In this document: piece by piece, positions 30 through 6,316 of the stretch
Layout of the letters: every line of letters begins with the position of its first letter
Position numbering within the stretch: the stretch's first letter is position 1
Assembly: GCF_005222835.1 (NCBI RefSeq)
Contig: NZ_STGA01000044.1
Location: forward strand, 1-64,000
Origin: Rhizobium sp. FKY42
GTDB lineage: Bacteria > Pseudomonadota > Alphaproteobacteria > Rhizobiales > Rhizobiaceae
DNA: 64,000 nt
Direction of reading: 5' to 3'
Position numbers and translations under genes: made by a program
The notes under the pieces: generated by a model
What the model was told of the DNA's origin: nothing
Database searches by the model: none
Seen by the model: the letters and a program-made list of their open reading frames with translations, nothing else

Positions 30-569
30 TTATGCGCCTAACCGGCTCAGTTTCGCGCGGAAACCAACAGTTTCAGTCAAAAAGCTGGAAATGCCGCTTG
101 AGTAGTTTGCGTTCTCTTTCGTCTTTTCAAAAAAATGTCTTAGAGCATCCATCCGGTCAGCCTTAGCCGATGTCCGTTGGTTGTAAATGTACTGCGCCAA
201 CCTCTCCCGCGCTAAAAAAAGCCGATCAAAGTTGGCCCATCTGTAAATTAGGTAATAGCAGCTCGAGTCGTATTTTAACTCAAGGGATCCTCGATATTGC
301 GTGTACTCAATCTCGTAGTTGGTCAGATCATTGTTTGGAATCATTACTATCGAGCGTTGTTCGGAACCAATCGAGAGAGCTTCTCCCTCAACGCCCGCTG
401 GAACAACCCTCTTAACAAATACAATGTTTGAAGGTCCGTTCCTGAGCAACGCGACTGTGTAGTCTCGCCGCCTTAAAACAGCAGGATCAGATAGGCTTAT
501 CTTCGTGGGCACCGGTGTACGCGTGGCCAATGATAACGCTTTACGAATTATAATAGACCTTATCCCCAT
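30..569 (-). CDS. hypothetical protein (179 aa)
   Basis: I do not recognise the family. The ATG at 569 has an AAGGG ribosome-binding site about six bases upstream. The protein is soluble-looking, has no signal peptide or membrane segment, and is rich in Tyr, Arg and Asn toward the C-terminus. The DNA is clearly more AT-rich than the core genes to the right, consistent with acquired DNA. It overlaps the 3' end of the small gene 541..759 by 29 bases, suggesting co-transcription from the right. It is downstream of a Com/ATPase-GNAT cassette and may belong to the same mobile element; function unknown. Confidence 0.55.
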   Translation of the reverse strand: MGIRSIIIRKALSLATRTPVPTKISLSDPAVLRRRDYTVALLRNGPSNIVFVKRVVPAGVEGEALSIGSEQRSIVMIPNNDLTNYEIEYTQYRGSLELKYDSSCYYLIYRWANFDRLFLARERLAQYIYNQRTSAKADRMDALRHFFEKTKENANYSSGISSFLTETVGFRAKLSRLGA

Positions 570-759: not shown

Positions 760-796
760 ACCTTCTTCAAACCCTCTTTGAAGCCTCTTCAAACCC
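754..796. repeat. short direct repeats CTTCAAACC(C) at the end of the formyltransferase gene
   Basis: CTTCAAACC occurs at 754-762, and CTTCAAACCC at 765-774 and 787-796. An inverted version, CTTTGAAG, lies at 776-783. The repeats span the stop codon of the formyltransferase gene and the start of the next open frame. They may mark a slippage or insertion junction at the cassette edge. Confidence 0.5.
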
Positions 797-1337
797 GCTC
801 CTGCTCCTCCGCCGGAATGAAGCCGTAGACTGCCAGATGGTCTGCGGCTTTGAGCAGTAGCTCCAGTCCCATCGGGCCGAGCGCCCTCCTCCACAGATCG
901 GCCGGTGTTTCGTCCGTTCCGATGAAGCACCAGTCCTGGAAAGCTATCGGCCCGCCATCCATGGCGTCGGTCAGATGATAGACCGTGCCGCCCGTAACAC
1001 GATCTCCTGCCGCAACAGCATCAGCCACCGCATGCCTGCCGGGATGAAGCGGCAGCAGCGACGGGTGATAGCCAATGCAGTATTTTGCCTGATCCCTTAT
1101 GTGGGCGGGCACGAAGACGAAGGCGTGGGCGCAGAGGATGAGATCAAACGCCTGCCCTGCCAGCGCATCCAGCCCACAACCGCCGTAACTATAGGCCGGA
1201 ATATCCGCCGCCATCGCCATCTGCCAGAGCCGGTCCTGCGGGTTCGGCACGGCGACGAATGCGACCTCATAAACAGGCAGCAGCGCCTTGAAGACTTCGG
1301 CTGCCAGCCACTTCTGGCCAATAATGCCAATCCTCAT
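789..1337 (-). CDS. formyltransferase-like protein (GART/Fmt N-domain fold), mobile-element cassette
   Basis: This 182-residue protein resembles the N10-formyl-tetrahydrofolate-dependent formyltransferase catalytic domain (GAR transformylase, Fmt). It has an N-terminal beta strand MRIGIIG, the loop GYHPSLLP at 89-96 and DAMDGGP at 124-130. Known enzymes use Asn, His and Asp; here His91 and Asp127 align, but the Asn position appears to be Gly89, so activity or substrate may differ. No C-terminal tRNA-binding domain is present. The ATG at 1337 overlaps the ATPase-GNAT stop as ATGA, showing translational coupling. Context suggests it acts with the Com/ATPase-GNAT genes, possibly on nucleotides or DNA; this is inference. 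Confidence 0.75.
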   Translation of the reverse strand: MRIGIIGQKWLAAEVFKALLPVYEVAFVAVPNPQDRLWQMAMAADIPAYSYGGCGLDALAGQAFDLILCAHAFVFVPAHIRDQAKYCIGYHPSLLPLHPGRHAVADAVAAGDRVTGGTVYHLTDAMDGGPIAFQDWCFIGTDETPADLWRRALGPMGLELLLKAADHLAVYGFIPAEEQERV

Positions 1338-2437
1338 GGCGCGTCCTCCGCACCCTCGACATAGCGGAAGCCTTGGATGGCTCGCAGATGCCCGCCATAT
1401 CCGGTTTTCATGCCGCGCCCGAGCGCGCTCTTCTGCTTGCCTGGACCATAGAGCACGGCAGAGACTTGAGCCCACATCCGATCCCGGCGCAGCGCCGCCG
1501 CCAAACCGGGATGTGAGGTATGGAACAGCGTCAGAAGCGGCTTGCCGTACCGGTTGTTTCCCCGTCGCCATTGCGCACAAACCGCATTGAGGAACCGCAC
1601 ACCGACACCCGCACCCTGCCATTCCGGCATCACCACAAGGCGGCAGGCTCTGGCTTCCGCCATTCCCGGCCGCGTGGAGAAAGCCACATGCGCCACCGGC
1701 TCGCCCTCCACAAAGCCGACATAGCAGGTGGCCGCAATCATGTGCGGCAGTTTCAGATAGTGATGCGGCTCAAAATGCGGCCACCATCGCCAGTTGGTTT
1801 CGCGGATCTCCAGCTGGATCTTGGGTCGTCGCCGAAGATACCTCCCGGTAAACGCACCCGTTGCCGTGTCATAGATCCAGTCCGGATCGAGCCAGTCGAT
1901 GATGTCATAATGGCAGGACAGCAGAACCGCCCTGCCACCCGTTCGCCGCCATGCCTTGCCAAAGGCCAGCGCACCAATGCGGGCGATCTGCCGATCGACC
2001 ACACTGGTGAACTCATCGATGACGACTTCGGACGGTTGTTCGCAGATGATCCGGGCAAGCTCCGCCCGGAACTTCTCACCATTGGACAGCACATGGAAGG
2101 GCCGCAGCCAGGCGGGCACAGAGCCCAGCCCGACTGCCGCCAACGCTGCCGTCACATCATCAAAGGCCCGCTCCGGCGCGATGGCCTCAATGATCGGCTG
2201 ATCGTCAGGCCAAGCCGCCTGATACCGCCGATCTTGCGAGAACACCCGCGCGCCGAGGCTTGTTTTGCCCGAACCCGACGGCCCGACGATGAGGCCAAGC
2301 GTCCAGTCCATGTCTTCAATCGGCAAGTCGGCGCTGATGGTAAACTGGTGCGCTTCCTCGACATTGAAGAGGGATTGAACCCGGCTGCTTCGATAGGTGT
2401 CGAACTCCGGGCTGGTGTGGGTGATCTCCAGCCTCAT
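1334..2437 (-). CDS. ABC-type ATPase fused to GNAT acetyltransferase domain (COG2401-like)
   Basis: A 367-residue two-domain protein. The N-terminal half is an ABC ATPase: Walker A GPSGSGKTS at 52-60, signature LSNGE at 117-121, Walker B VVIDEF at 138-143 and a switch histidine near 176. The C-terminal part (about 205-330) is a GNAT domain with the acetyl-CoA loop QGAGVG at 274-279. There are no membrane segments, so this is not a transporter ATPase. It is coupled by 4-bp ATGA overlaps to both neighbours. Mu Mom is a GNAT-like DNA-modifying enzyme controlled by Com, and a Com-like gene lies two genes upstream. A role in DNA or nucleotide modification is therefore a reasonable inference, not shown. 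Confidence 0.85.
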   Translation of the reverse strand: MRLEITHTSPEFDTYRSSRVQSLFNVEEAHQFTISADLPIEDMDWTLGLIVGPSGSGKTSLGARVFSQDRRYQAAWPDDQPIIEAIAPERAFDDVTAALAAVGLGSVPAWLRPFHVLSNGEKFRAELARIICEQPSEVVIDEFTSVVDRQIARIGALAFGKAWRRTGGRAVLLSCHYDIIDWLDPDWIYDTATGAFTGRYLRRRPKIQLEIRETNWRWWPHFEPHHYLKLPHMIAATCYVGFVEGEPVAHVAFSTRPGMAEARACRLVVMPEWQGAGVGVRFLNAVCAQWRRGNNRYGKPLLTLFHTSHPGLAAALRRDRMWAQVSAVLYGPGKQKSALGRGMKTGYGGHLRAIQGFRYVEGAEDAP

Positions 2438-2625
2438 GTTACCACCACCTTGATCCTGGTGGTTCGAATGGCCGTCAGCGCATTGAACAGTGCCTCCTGA
2501 GACGCCTGATCCGGGCAGATCAGGATCACCCCATATTGCGACCGATACCTGAAGCCGTTTCGTTTAGGAGCCTTTGCAGGCAAAGGCGGCAGTTCGTCTT
2601 TCTCGTCCATAAGAAGCCTCGTCAC
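2434..2625 (-). CDS. small cassette protein (63 aa) between Com and ATPase-GNAT
   Basis: A 63-residue basic protein. Its first 25 residues are rich in Lys, Pro and Glu, followed by a compact segment (YGVILICPDQASQEALF) that looks like a small alpha/beta unit. No family name is recognised. It overlaps the com-like gene by 62 bases in another frame and the ATPase-GNAT gene by 4 bases (ATGA). The overlap mirrors the com/mom arrangement of phage Mu. It is probably a partner or leader of the ATPase-GNAT protein. Confidence 0.6.
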   Translation of the reverse strand: MTRLLMDEKDELPPLPAKAPKRNGFRYRSQYGVILICPDQASQEALFNALTAIRTTRIKVVVT

Positions 2626-2779
2626 CCTGTCGCTCGCGGCGATCTGAGACGGGCTCCGCTGGCCTCAAATGGTTGACTGTACCGCATCGGCGGCACTTGA
2701 TTTCGATGGTGGCGGCAATCGCGCCACGATCCATTTTGAAGAGTAGTGCGCGGCAGCTGCCGCAGCGCATTTCCTGCAT
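2564..2779 (-). CDS. com: Com-like zinc-finger translational regulator (phage Mu Com family)
   Basis: A 71-residue protein with two CxxC pairs (Cys6/Cys9 and Cys29/Cys32) separated by a LLFK segment. This closely resembles Mu Com, an RNA-binding zinc-finger protein that opens a stem-loop to allow translation of the DNA-modification gene mom. The C-terminal third is charged and probably disordered. The next gene starts inside this one, as mom does in Mu. It most likely controls translation of the downstream cassette. Homology is strong for the cysteine core; the regulatory target here is inferred. Confidence 0.8.
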   Translation of the reverse strand: MQEMRCGSCRALLFKMDRGAIAATIEIKCRRCGTVNHLRPAEPVSDRRERQGDEASYGRERRTAAFACKGS

Positions 2780-2896
2780 TGTTTCAATGTCTCGACTCAG
2801 TCACTGATCTCCACCTCGGCTTTGCCGGGGTCGGATGTGACAGTTATCGATCAGATCCCGTCGAGCGAGTCTGTACGCCAATCTTAGTCCCGCTTT

Positions 2897-2912
2897 CGGA
2901 GCCTTGGCTCCG
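2897..2912. promoter_or_regulatory. perfect hairpin between gpD remnant and com-like gene
   Basis: CGGAGCC and GGCTCCG form a 7-bp stem with a 2-base spacer, in the untranslated stretch upstream of com. There is no T-run beside it. It may be a terminator core of the former tail-gene operon or an RNA element used by Com. Confidence 0.4.
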
Positions 2913-2931
2913 GCATCCGTCAACCGAATCT

Positions 2932-3183
2932 CTAAGTCTTTGCCGCCAGTTCCGGCGTCATCAGCCAGCCTCCCTGTTCGTCGAATGTGAACTCGTGGGT
3001 GATGGTCTGGGCGACGAGATCGCGCCCGCTCCATCCGCCAAACCCGATCAGCTGAACCGGCGCTCCGGCCATGGCCGCAGGATCGCCCTCAATGGTCAGG
3101 CTGCCGGTGATCGTGGCGCGTGCCAGTGCGGTGGCTTCAGCCTTGCTCTTCACCTTGGCCTCAGAACCGGATGCTGCCGGAAA
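2932..3183 (-). pseudogene. phage late control protein D (gpD) C-terminal fragment
   Basis: About 80 residues match the C-terminal end of phage late-control protein D, a baseplate/tail protein of Mu- and P2-like phages. The pattern is the SKAEATALA helix, then GSLTIEGDP, GAPVQLIGFGG and the strand pair ending in THEFTF...GGWLMTPELAAK. Intact gpD is several hundred residues. Here the frame is cut near 3183, where insertion-element leader sequence begins. This is direct evidence of a decayed prophage. Confidence 0.7.
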
Positions 3184-3341
3184 CAGGAGCCAGTATAACG
3201 AAACGACTCCGCCGCAACCACAGTCCTGCCTTTAAGGCGAAAGTCGTGCCGCCGTGATTAAGGGCGAAACTGGTCGAGCTCGCGCAGCAGTTCGACGTGC
3301 ATCAGAACCAGATCAGAGATCGCCACGTTCAAAGGCCATGA
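3184..3341 (+). mobile_element. IS3-family orfA transposase remnant
   Basis: On the plus strand an AGGAG site (3185-3189) is followed by ATA ACG AAA CGA at 3195. Translation reads KRLRRNHSPAFKAKV, a stop at 3255, then AKLVELAQQFDVHQNQI before another stop at 3339. This is the start of an IS3-group OrfA with its helix-turn-helix (usually HSPAFKAKVALAA...LAEQFDVHPNQI). The start codon has become ATA and a nonsense codon interrupts it. No orfB or terminal inverted repeats remain. Confidence 0.75.
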
Positions 3342-3364
3342 TTGTGCAGCTGTTGAAAGCGTCT

Positions 3365-4663
3365 TCAATCTTCTGAAGCCGGAGCGATTATGTTGCGGTT
3401 TTTATCTCCTTTAGAGACTGAGGCGTCCAAATCAATGAGACGCGGTCTGGGTACGGCTGAAAGAAATACCCAGTAGCCGACGACCGAGAACGCCGCGAGC
3501 GAACCTAAGGCAATCTGATAGGATTGCGTCACTCCGAACGTCGGTGACATTGCGGAAACGAGCAAACCAAATCCCCACTGCCAGATAAAAACTCCGACAA
3601 ACAACAACAAATTGAAAAATGCTATTGCACGCCCTGCTTCTGCTGGCTTGGATCGCTGGCCCACCAGTGGATGAGTGACCGATAACGGCCACGCGGCAAC
3701 GCAATAGAGGGCGAACATGTACCAATCGGCCTTGTCACCCATGATCGTGATAACAATCAAAATCGTGATGCTCGCCGGCGTCCATCTGCGCAACAGGCGC
3801 TCTGCGTCCTGGGCAGACGTGTTGAACTTCGGAGAAAGGTAGCCCATGAGTAAAAATGTCACGAGCATGATGATGTTGATGAACAGAAGTTCCAGCGATG
3901 CCCCGCGAGCATCTTCCCCCCTCAGCTGCGTCAACCAGGGACCAATCCATAAGGTCTGCACAGCCACAAGGATTGCATAGTTGAAGAACCCAAGGGCACC
4001 AATCTTCCAAGTATAGGAAGTGGACATGATATTTTTATAGCCGAGGAAGAAGCTTCGGATACCTGCTGTCCCTTGGGGATTATGCTTCGGTGCCTTAACC
4101 GCAACCAGCAGGGCAACCGCCGCGAACAAAAGGCCCAGGGCCACGAACAGAGACGGCCAGCCGAATGAGGTTGCAAGGCTTTCGGATGGTAGCGTGCCGA
4201 GTACAAGACCGAGCGCACCCGCCATCAACATCCATGAATTAAGGCGCTGTTGCTGGGCGGCCGCCGTCCAGAGGCGGGCTGCCGTGAGCGGCGCAATAAG
4301 ACAGGCGCTGACACCGATACCACTGAGCAATCGAGCGCCGAAAAGTCCATTGAATGAACTCGAATTGGCAAACAGGAAGCAGGACAGCGCGGCAACACTC
4401 AATGAAACCACGAGAACGAGCCGGACACCGAACCGATCCAGTAGTGCGCCCATAGGCAGCTGCATGATCGCAAAAGACACGAAATAAGATCCGGCAAGCA
4501 AACCTAGCTGGGCCGAAGATAAAGAAAACTCCGCCGTCAACATGGCCGCCAGCGCGGCTGTCACCCCCCGTAACTGGGATGACAGCAAATATCCAGCAGC
4601 AAAGACCACGAGGACGAAAATACCCAGCTGGCCGTTGGCCCGGTCTTGTTCTTTCAGCTCCAT
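3365..4663 (-). CDS. MFS transporter of the oxygenase island
   Basis: A 432-residue membrane protein of the major facilitator superfamily with about 12 hydrophobic segments. The A-motif-like loop MGALLDRFGVRLVL lies between segments 2 and 3. The ATG at 4663 is chosen because the protein begins MELKEQDRANGQ directly before the first membrane segment; it overlaps the preceding oxygenase stop by 10 bases. Coupling to two oxygenase genes suggests export or uptake of the oxygenase product or substrate. The substrate cannot be read from sequence. Confidence 0.85.
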   Translation of the reverse strand: MELKEQDRANGQLGIFVLVVFAAGYLLSSQLRGVTAALAAMLTAEFSLSSAQLGLLAGSYFVSFAIMQLPMGALLDRFGVRLVLVVSLSVAALSCFLFANSSSFNGLFGARLLSGIGVSACLIAPLTAARLWTAAAQQQRLNSWMLMAGALGLVLGTLPSESLATSFGWPSLFVALGLLFAAVALLVAVKAPKHNPQGTAGIRSFFLGYKNIMSTSYTWKIGALGFFNYAILVAVQTLWIGPWLTQLRGEDARGASLELLFINIIMLVTFLLMGYLSPKFNTSAQDAERLLRRWTPASITILIVITIMGDKADWYMFALYCVAAWPLSVTHPLVGQRSKPAEAGRAIAFFNLLLFVGVFIWQWGFGLLVSAMSPTFGVTQSYQIALGSLAAFSVVGYWVFLSAVPRPRLIDLDASVSKGDKNRNIIAPASED

Positions 4664-5469
4664 ACCGTCAAAGGCTCCTTCTCGCCTCGATAGCCAAGGA
4701 AACCAGATATGGTTAGTCGATCCACGCCTTCGCCGGGCAAAACTGCGTGGAGTTTTCGGGCATTGAAGAGGATCAAATCGCCGTTTTCGGGTTTGGCCGA
4801 ATAATCGCAAGGTCCGAGTTGTTCGAGCGGAATTGCATAATCGCCACCCCGCCGCTCCAGGAACTCGGCATCCGAAATCTCGTCGTTCCACATCCCTATT
4901 TCGCCGCCCTTCTCTGGCACATCAATGTAGATGTTGATCGCAAATTGGCTGATCAGGGATTCAGCTTCAGGCGTATTGGGTGCATGTCGTCCGAACATGT
5001 CATGATGCGCTTTGAGTGGAATTCCAGGCTTCATGCAGCGCGAAAGTCCTACAAACATTTTTTTCCCGAAGAGCGTTTGAAGCGTGCACCCCTGCGCCCA
5101 GGTTTCGTCCATCGCACAACGAAAGGTGTCCATCGGGCAAGGATAAGGCGCACAGGCGGCTCTCAGGAGATTGATGTTATCCATCGCCGTCTCAAAATAG
5201 TGGTCGATGATTTCCTGCTTCATGCCGGTCTCGAAATACGACATGCCGATACGGCCGACCTTCGGTGCGTTCAGATAGTCGTTATAGCCCGTGGACTTGA
5301 GCCCCTTGGTGATCTGCTTGCAGGCATCGCGCGAAATGAAATCAGGAATCCGGAGAACCTGAATTTCATTCCGGATCAATGCCCCCACGTCTTCAGCGGT
5401 CAGCCTGGAAGAGACACGGACCGGGTCTGTTGCGGATGCGGGAGCAGTCTTTTGAATAGCCACGTTCAT
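4654..5469 (-). CDS. Fe(II)/2-oxoglutarate-dependent oxygenase, paralog B
   Basis: A 271-residue protein with a likely facial triad His155-x-Asp157 (in AHHDMFG) and distal His241 (in RKLHAV). Arg251 (in RLTIS) is suited to bind 2-oxoglutarate. It carries Asp, not Gly/Ala, at the carboxylate ligand, so it should hydroxylate or desaturate rather than halogenate. It is a clear paralog of the gene just upstream (shared FGKKMFVGLSR, GYRGE, LTxWS). GGAG precedes the ATG, and the gap from the upstream stop is 4 bases. The substrate is unknown; small amino-acid-like compounds are a guess from size and fold. Confidence 0.75.
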   Translation of the reverse strand: MNVAIQKTAPASATDPVRVSSRLTAEDVGALIRNEIQVLRIPDFISRDACKQITKGLKSTGYNDYLNAPKVGRIGMSYFETGMKQEIIDHYFETAMDNINLLRAACAPYPCPMDTFRCAMDETWAQGCTLQTLFGKKMFVGLSRCMKPGIPLKAHHDMFGRHAPNTPEAESLISQFAINIYIDVPEKGGEIGMWNDEISDAEFLERRGGDYAIPLEQLGPCDYSAKPENGDLILFNARKLHAVLPGEGVDRLTISGFLGYRGEKEPLTVWS

Positions 5470-5473
5470 GGGT

Positions 5474-6316
5474 TCAGCTCCAATATGTGAGCGGGCATTC
5501 TTCCCCGCGATATCCGATGAAGAATGAGACCGCCATACGCGACGATCCGCGCGGAGATGCGACGGCGTGGATCTTGCGGGAGTCGAAAATCAAAAGATCG
5601 CCCCGACCCGGCTTGATGACCACATCGGGCGGCGGAAGGTCTTCTATGGCAATGCCATATTTGCCTTTGCGACGTTCATTGAACTCTTCAGTGGTCATGT
5701 TTTTGTGCCACATCAGGAGTTCACCCCCGATGTCTGGCACCTGGAAGTAGATGTTTGCGGCAAATTGCGCAGTGAGCGACTCTGCTTCCTCAATGCCGGG
5801 AGCATCTTCAGAAAAAATGTCATGATGCGCGAGGAAGGTCGTATTGGGTTCGACCATGCGCGAAAGGCCTACGAACATTTTCCGCCCAAATATCGTTTGG
5901 AGATTAGCACCTGCGGGCCAGATTTCGTCCAGCAGCGCGCGCAGCGTGTCCAGCGGAGAGCCGAACGGTTCACAGGCCTTGCGAAAATCGTTTTGGTGGA
6001 CACTGGCGACAGTGAAGTATTTGTCAATGAGTTCTGGTTTCATTTCGGTTTCGTAGAAGGCCATGCCGATTTTACGAACTTCCGAAACGTTTATATAAGG
6101 CTGAAAGCCAAGGCTCGTCTGCCCCTTGCTGATAAGGTCACAAGAAGGGCCGTTGGCAAACCCCTTCACCTTGACGACGCGCACTTCACCCCTGGCCAGC
6201 GCTGTAATATGATCCTTGTTAAGGCTATATTTGGTAGTCTCAATTACATAATCTCTATTGTCTGTTTCTTGGAAATCATGACAGTTTTCTTTTTTCACTG
6301 CCTGCAAATTATTCAT
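5474..6316 (-). CDS. Fe(II)/2-oxoglutarate-dependent oxygenase, paralog A
   Basis: A 280-residue paralog of the adjacent gene. It has putative iron ligands His164-x-Asp166 and His250, and Arg260 for 2-oxoglutarate. Both copies keep all ligands, so both are likely active and may act in sequence or on related substrates. An AGGAG site precedes the ATG at 6316. The upstream region is very AT-rich and shared with the divergent LysR gene, the usual layout for LysR control of a target operon. First gene of the three-gene minus-strand operon. Confidence 0.75.
   Translation of the reverse strand: MNNLQAVKKENCHDFQETDNRDYVIETTKYSLNKDHITALARGEVRVVKVKGFANGPSCDLISKGQTSLGFQPYINVSEVRKIGMAFYETEMKPELIDKYFTVASVHQNDFRKACEPFGSPLDTLRALLDEIWPAGANLQTIFGRKMFVGLSRMVEPNTTFLAHHDIFSEDAPGIEEAESLTAQFAANIYFQVPDIGGELLMWHKNMTTEEFNERRKGKYGIAIEDLPPPDVVIKPGRGDLLIFDSRKIHAVASPRGSSRMAVSFFIGYRGEECPLTYWS

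Follow-up and report, generated by a model that had tools for sequence, protein, structure and literature searches.

A possible DNA-acylation cassette combining a Com-like switch, an ABC ATPase-GNAT fusion and a formyltransferase in a Rhizobium prophage remnant

Why would a phage-type translational switch stand in front of an ATPase-acyltransferase fusion and a formyltransferase? This question is raised by a minus-strand locus at positions 789..2779 of the window, by which we mean the whole 64,000-nucleotide stretch of Rhizobium sp. FKY42 analyzed here (assembly GCF_005222835.1, contig NZ_STGA01000044.1). In order of transcription, the locus encodes a Com-like zinc-ribbon protein (P0003, 2564..2779), a small protein (P0004, 2434..2610), a fusion of an ABC ATPase with a GNAT domain (P0002, 1334..2437) and a formyltransferase (FT; P0001, 789..1337). 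The original prediction saw in these genes a GNAT-dependent and possibly Mom-like system for modifying DNA bases. All four genes are present there, and the overlaps of 62, 4 and 4 bp between them hold provided that the FT starts at the ATG at 1337; the mechanically called open reading frame (ORF) opens ahead of it, at 1622. Our tentative answer, to which we give slightly less than an even chance on sequence evidence, is that a prophage remnant here retains a phage cassette for DNA modification, in which formyl-coenzyme A (formyl-CoA) made by the FT would feed the GNAT domain and yield, most likely, an N-formylated base.

The genomic setting of the locus points to phages and to DNA modification. 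Directly upstream of com lies the C-terminal remnant of a phage late/tail gene D (2932..3186, minus strand; phrog_52 profile match), of which just the last part remains, and the locus is therefore read as a prophage remnant; the window itself begins at the first base of its contig (C68). Two further copies of com occur in the same genome, within prophage-like regions on contigs C32 and C29 that are 95.2% and 81.7% identical, respectively, to window positions 2626-3186. Each of them has the same gpD-Com pair and, after it, a frame for a C5-cytosine DNA methyltransferase, which was supported by Pfam on C29 (DNA_methylase, 6.2e-23) and identified by eye only on C32, both regions containing masked stretches. 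The identity between the window and C32 ends at 2626, 16 bases ahead of the ATG of the small gene. Since the other gpD-Com copies lead into cytosine methyltransferases, the cassette sits in an exchangeable DNA-modification slot.

The same slot was visible in viral genomes. We kept 80 of the 87 viral loci retrieved with P0003 and used profiles to count the same-strand genes lying no more than ~1.6 kb from where com starts. A C5 methyltransferase followed com in 47 of these loci (accompanied in 9 by a D12 adenine methyltransferase), a D12 methyltransferase alone in 6 and an ABC-GNAT in 12, and Pfam identified N6/N4 methyltransferases in six more (L266, L278, L292, L296, L302 and L307); overall, a DNA methyltransferase or an ABC-GNAT followed Com in 71/80 loci, with one representative of each methyltransferase class confirmed by Pfam. 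Outside this count are L257, L311 and L316, as well as L267-L269, L274 and L275, in which an ORF occupies the position of the L266 methyltransferase (L268 was read by eye); in L265 a generic methyltransferase domain follows a stretch with the look of a ParB domain. Measured from the com ATG, the most frequent start of the C5 methyltransferase ORF is 169 nt downstream (17 of 47 loci), and the ATG of the small protein in the window, at 2610, has exactly this offset. The largest ORF cluster downstream of com was partly composed of shadow reading frames and was discarded as an artefact in favor of the profile counts. This slot exchange ties the ABC-GNAT system to DNA modification by substitution. 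Together with the existing prediction that this family acylates a base, it lends support to the inference of a GNAT-dependent DNA modification, and we consider it quite probable that DNA is the target of the cassette.

We then asked how often the four genes travel together. A tblastn search of 50,697 phage records with P0002 gave 66 matches, and broader scans gave 488 viral and 163 genome relatives, of which 80 each were kept; these 160 loci (some contigs occur in both scans, and the loci were not dereplicated), the window's own locus and four phage records form a set of 165. Of these loci, 162 contain the domain of the small protein, 132 contain FT and 115 contain Com; in 21 the small-protein domain is fused to a ParB-like protein. 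For the 129 loci flanked on either side by 700 bp or more, again not dereplicated, these numbers were 128, 114, 88 and 19, so that the association of the four genes goes far beyond chance. FT was present in 115 of the 132 loci with at least 700 bp downstream, and in each of the 11 phage records where FT was matched it came directly after the ABC-GNAT. In the reverse direction, of the 80 hits kept out of 328 in a viral scan with an FT alignment, 80/80 have a same-strand ABC-GNAT in the 3-kb flank. Homologs lacking any link to Com or phages had been named as grounds for rejecting the idea: Com is indeed missing from 50 of the 165 loci, while all 66 tblastn matches to P0002 are phage records, the genome loci not having been individually checked for phage genes.

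P0003 looks like a genuine Com switch acting on the translation of the next gene, and its family matches suggest an RNA-binding translational activator. It matches Pfam PF10122 Zn_ribbon_Com (1.1e-13; 50.8 bits against a cut-off of 22.9) and PHROG 6417, a translational regulator family (1.1e-11). A covarying hairpin at 2630..2642 of the minus strand lies within the com gene, some 20 nt before the start codon that follows; its stem pairs 2642-2639 with 2633-2630, and it carries the motif CC(N)2GAG at 2639-2633. Selection experiments with Mu Com yielded CC(N)2-3GAG in hairpin loops (PMC6483171). The profile match and the hairpin together bear out the Com assignment. Across 148 distinct Com loci, the CC(N)2-3GAG motif was present in 132, compared to 55.5 in codon shuffles, and it was accompanied by a stem of at least 4 bp in 88 (64 of 91 ABC-GNAT loci and 24 of 57 other Com loci), compared to a mean of 2.8 and a maximum of 9 in the shuffles.

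The pairing of this hairpin was further examined in the 54 of 195 Com ORFs that have a D/E-R-x-x-R codon run near the gene end, 28 of which are distinct. As this choice of rows makes the two middle C-G pairs constant, the covariation test rests on the outer and the inner pair. The outer pair was standard in 25/28 sequences, with six pair types (13.4 expected; 0 of 10,000 shuffles), and the inner pair also in 25/28 (18.3 expected; 3 of 10,000 shuffles); three of the four mispaired controls were unremarkable, and the fourth (positions 3 and 9) reached 425 of 10,000. Overall, 94.6% of cells were paired, compared to 13-51% in slid controls, and the 15-mer contained CC(N)2GAG in 19/28 sequences. 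Changes on both sides of a pair were seen in 16 cells versus 4.4 in shuffled sets (0/500), a count of the kind that relatedness inflates; the +3 slid control had 13 such cells, and the number of pairs with both-side changes was not above that of the shuffles (2 vs 1.7). By eye, single-sequence folds revealed no larger common structure around the end of com.

The small protein, as originally read, spans 2434-2625 from a GTG, and the ATG at 2610 is the better start, having a GAGG at 2620-2617. P0004 matches PHROG 28816 (1.4e-12). Since its domain is fused behind a ParB-like domain in some loci and stands alone elsewhere, the small protein is the orphaned C-terminal tail of a ParB-like protein, one that stands ahead of the ABC-GNAT in other phages. 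Com and ParB are mutually exclusive among the 165 loci, with the single exception of L144, where Com lies 4.5 kb downstream. The ParB domain is similar to the beginning of methyltransferases from phages, as in the L166 protein, which matches PADLOC MTase_II (4.7e-40); two of the three ParB-like proteins tested against Pfam ParB_N scored just under the cut-off. A 2025 paper describes ParBc proteins that adjoin phage modification enzymes and are also fused to DNA methyltransferases (PMC12783734), and Serratia phage eta is described as having a ParB homolog and no modified base (PMC3918226). We propose P0004 as a likely adaptor of the ABC-GNAT protein.

P0002 is a predicted ATP-dependent DNA-base acyltransferase, with the ABC part at residues ~1-203 and the GNAT part at ~205-361. 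It matches PHROG 11143 (3.1e-147), scores above the Pfam cut-offs for both ABC_tran and Acetyltransf_1, and is related to QAX98348.1 of Aeromonas phage AsFcp_2 (35.1%, 6e-42); the CoA-loop residues of the GNAT domain are invariant. The phrog_11143 profile also matched 14/14 control genomes, where it is inseparable from ordinary ABC and GNAT domains, and in P0002 PADLOC picked up nothing beyond a short ABC match (mad3) and a trace (mad8). Public records label such proteins as ABC transporters, a label that probably does not suit the ABC-GNAT: P0002 has a GNAT domain as its C-terminal half, and Pfam, applied to the four proteins of the cassette and not to the remaining genome, found no permease match. 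The suggestion that the GNAT domain belongs to the Mom family was not borne out, with the Pfam Mom family PF25680 silent for P0002 at E<=1 while detecting Mu Mom at 2.4e-75. Profile comparison by hhalign gave a P-value of 0.005 and a probability of 7%, on a short match containing H-Y and with a shallow Mom set, and a wider Mom search of 398 genomes gave four matches over the cut-off. The Mom structure 8bv8 is absent among the fold matches listed for the ABC-GNAT, a listing that proves nothing either way. In Oenococcus, Streptococcus and Enterococcus phages (L170, L178 and L179), ABC and GNAT occur as two consecutive ORFs.

What the FT contributes is the central point of our answer. P0001 has the Formyl_trans_N fold (PF00551, 4e-17; PHROG 9240, 6.5e-41) and keeps the catalytic His and Asp. 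By both sequence profile and fold, its closest relative is the hydrolase domain of ALDH1L1, rather than PurN, Fmt or ArnA. The label "GART/Fmt-like" therefore stands as far as the superfamily is concerned, and the closer kinship with GART or Fmt does not. The catalytic Asn of the N-x-H motif of PurN and Fmt was absent, at positions taken from a domain-trimmed FT profile, in all 126 FT ORFs in which the HPS motif could be read, and in 80/80 FTs of a second viral scan (contigs partly shared with the first). A PurN/GART or Fmt function was accordingly rejected, the NCBIfam scores also being far too low (45.9 bits against a cut-off of 150.1, and 45.5 against 201.5). In ALDH1L1 this position is occupied by Ile104, whose change to Asn leaves less than 10% of the activity, and a thiol (mercaptoethanol or 4'-phosphopantetheine) has been proposed as formyl acceptor (PMC4388273; PMC8748788). 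The missing Asn and the resemblance to an enzyme that transfers formyl to a thiol point to the making of an acyl donor, proposed here to be formyl-CoA, a role of the FT to which we give slightly less than an even chance.

An alternative is that the donor used by the ABC-GNAT to acylate DNA is an ordinary or an aminoacyl one, and that the FT then acts on the product or substrate, for instance by formylating the amino group of an attached aminoacyl. Many amine formyltransferases are indeed found in the superfamily, including among the solved relatives of the FT, and glycyl-CoA has been suggested as the donor for Mom (PMC7824862). We found no evidence for a formylated Mom glycinamide, which the original prediction had called thinkable, and the absence of the amine-formyltransferase Asn from every FT read, along with a thiol-transfer enzyme as nearest relative, makes this alternative unlikely.

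Several records bear on the naming and distribution of the FT family. Gene 3 of Gordonia phage AnClar (L006) and its relatives are annotated as "tRNA-methyltransferase" and actually belong to this family (PF00551, 5e-10); AnClar has ParB and ABC-GNAT as well. PHROG 9240 itself carries the label "cyanobacterial phosphoribosylglycinamide formyltransferase". On same-order chromosomes (L446-L461) we observed a stand-alone FT relative, mostly of 195-200 residues and with the motif G-Y-H-P-S, with ABC-GNAT absent in 3.5 kb.

A sister clade of ABC-GNATs carries other genes next to the acyltransferase. The set of 55 loci (L168-L222) comprises Gordonia phage Jace, which enters the count twice and also has ParB, and its viral relatives, and it includes several near-copies. 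The ABC-GNAT is followed by an aspartate decarboxylase (PanD) in 15 of these loci and by a CoA-transferase-III-like protein in 19, and no match to either was found in L001-L167. FT occurs only once in the sister clade, in L209, where its reading is identical to that of L166. In a tree of 102 ABC-GNATs, 59 rows with FT and 10 rows with the CoA-transferase-like gene fall on opposite sides of a 100/100 branch, although the bootstrap had not converged and this separating branch is one at which long branches meet. The PanD sequences shown retain the G-S cleavage site, which we take to be the PanD active site. In L181, and apparently also in L182-L186 and L191, which look like near-copies, two ABC-GNAT genes seem to flank the pair of PanD and CoA-transferase-like genes. 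These findings raise a broader and more doubtful idea, namely that the ABC-GNAT systems of phages come with donor factories of their own, for formyl-CoA in one clade and for beta-alanyl-CoA (by PanD and the CoA-transferase-like protein) in the other, and would place N-formyl or N-beta-alanyl groups on the bases of DNA.

In the scheme that we propose for the cassette, Com would presumably be produced at a late stage of phage development, as in Mu; it would bind the hairpin at the 3' end of com and, again by analogy with Mu, open the translation of the adaptor and the ABC-GNAT. The small ParB-tail adaptor would hold the ABC-GNAT, whose ABC part is predicted to use ATP to engage or present the DNA, and whose GNAT part is predicted to move an acyl group from acyl-CoA onto the amino group of a base. 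The ALDH1L1-like FT would produce formyl-CoA by shifting the formyl group of 10-formyltetrahydrofolate (10-formyl-THF) to CoA, which offers a thiol of the pantetheine type. The near-fixed partnership of the genes, the slot exchange, the Com hairpin, the kinship of the FT, the invariant CoA loop, the sister-clade genes, the low dN/dS described below and the earlier prediction for the family speak for this scheme. The likely purpose would be to shield phage DNA from restriction. N-formyl amides on bases are not very stable, and we therefore rate formyl as the final group lower than the making of a donor by the FT.

Beyond this instability, a number of observations weigh against the scheme. The motif with a 4-bp stem was not found in 60/148 Com loci; in the sister clade, 35/55 loci have none of FT, PanD and the CoA-transferase-like gene in the stretch examined, and the CoA-transferase-like proteins are half-size, with the catalytic Asp that we assume to be the usual active-site residue not evident. 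FT was not found in 17 of the 132 loci that have at least 700 bp downstream. FT relatives (E<=1e-25) occur in 36 of 397 same-order genomes (own row included), and 16 of 20 fetched same-order FT loci (one being the window's own) have no ABC-GNAT within ~1.5 kb, so that a stand-alone cellular FT branch exists and the family has other uses. The loci without FT and the stand-alone chromosomal relatives would suit an alternative in which DNA is acylated with acetyl-CoA or another host acyl-CoA and the FT is a one-carbon accessory, such as a 10-formyl-THF hydrolase, with no part in the modification. Overlapping genes, the 80/80 co-occurrence in viral contigs and the CoA-linked genes that occupy the place of FT in the sister clade all argue against such an accessory, which we regard as quite unlikely.

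The best solved fold matches of the GNAT domain also weigh against the scheme, as they are ordinary acetyltransferases, including the protein acetyltransferase RimI; the concern that the domain might group with protein or drug acetyltransferases is to this extent justified. They would fit a target other than DNA, namely a host protein or RNA modified in counter-defence or takeover, and phage GNATs that modify RNA polymerase, such as Rac, are known (PMC7824862). The exchange with DNA methyltransferases behind Com, and a ParB-like partner of the kind that is fused to phage methyltransferases, speak against such a target, which we consider distinctly improbable.

A separate question, which can be combined with any of these readings, is whether the cassette still functions in this genome. 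It may be a decaying, silent prophage remnant without present function, as the reduction of gene D to a 3' piece beside it suggests. Genome G016 shares its right-hand flank with window 3118-3937 at 95.9%, with no match for the left-hand flank; it keeps FT and most of the ABC-GNAT, and a deletion of ~0.86 kb has taken out Com, the small gene and the start of the ABC-GNAT, which also speaks for decay. On the other hand, the frames are open in all four genes of the window, and the ratio of nonsynonymous to synonymous substitution (dN/dS) against G016 is low, at 0.061 for the ABC-GNAT (305 codons) and 0.126 for the FT (180 codons). Both genes were therefore under purifying selection for much of the divergence between the window and G016, although this selection may predate the formation of the remnant. 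On balance, we regard silence and function in this host as evenly matched.

Other genes surround the cassette. On the 3' side of FT, at the contig start, lies a 179-residue ORF (window 30-569, minus strand) with no convincing family match in the profile libraries. Beside the prophage remnant, at window 3365-6316 on the minus strand, are an MFS transporter and two tandem 2-oxoglutarate-Fe(II) enzymes with WelO5-like matches of 7.8e-10 and 1.4e-5, the latter under the cut-off; by their sequences these genes form a possible small-molecule oxidation cluster.

The partner genes suggest donors, formyl-CoA and beta-alanyl-CoA, for a family so far only predicted to acylate DNA, and the ParB-tail finding names a likely adaptor of the ABC-GNAT. 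If the proposed reading is correct, acylated bases would join the known chemistry of phage DNA, and Com control would reach beyond Mom to DNA methyltransferases and the ABC-GNAT system. If the more doubtful donor-factory idea holds as well, these would be new DNA modifications, formyl-CoA would for the first time be seen to donate an acyl group to a nucleic acid, and the Com RNA switch would run part of the ABC-GNAT family.

Several known systems resemble parts of this cassette. The ABC ATPase-GNAT arrangement was reportedly predicted to be a DNA-base acylation system by Iyer et al. in 2013, a paper that lay outside our literature coverage. The prediction is named again by Iyer et al. in 2021, with QAX98348.1 as example (PMC7824862); P0002 shares with this homolog the order of ABC ATPase followed by GNAT, whereas no FT, ParB tail or Com is named for the family in the part of that paper available to us. 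Our literature search found no paper joining ABC ATPase, formyltransferase, phage and acetyltransferase, and nothing on the FT partner, the ParB tail, the slot exchange or the donor genes; nor did it find any paper on COG2401, a possible archaeal link of the family. With Mu com-mom, the locus shares a Com-like switch near late genes, a CC(N)2-3GAG hairpin ahead of the next start, a com gene that overlaps the following gene, and a GNAT-fold enzyme predicted to modify a base; it differs in that the GNAT domain is fused to an ABC ATPase, falls outside the Pfam Mom family and is accompanied by a ParB-tail protein and an FT. The N-terminal hydrolase domain of ALDH1L1, a 10-formyl-THF dehydrogenase, is the closest known counterpart of the FT in profile and fold, with His and Asp kept and Asn absent in both, but the FT here is a stand-alone protein of 182 residues without carrier or dehydrogenase domain, and its proposed acceptor is free CoA. 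PurN/GART and Fmt have the superfamily and fold in common with the FT, and differ from it by the N-x-H motif and by NCBIfam scores that leave the FT far below their cut-offs. Com and the acylation prediction for ABC-GNAT proteins are thus already known, and the FT partner, the ParB tail, the slot exchange, the donor genes and the Com hairpin at this locus are new within the literature covered.

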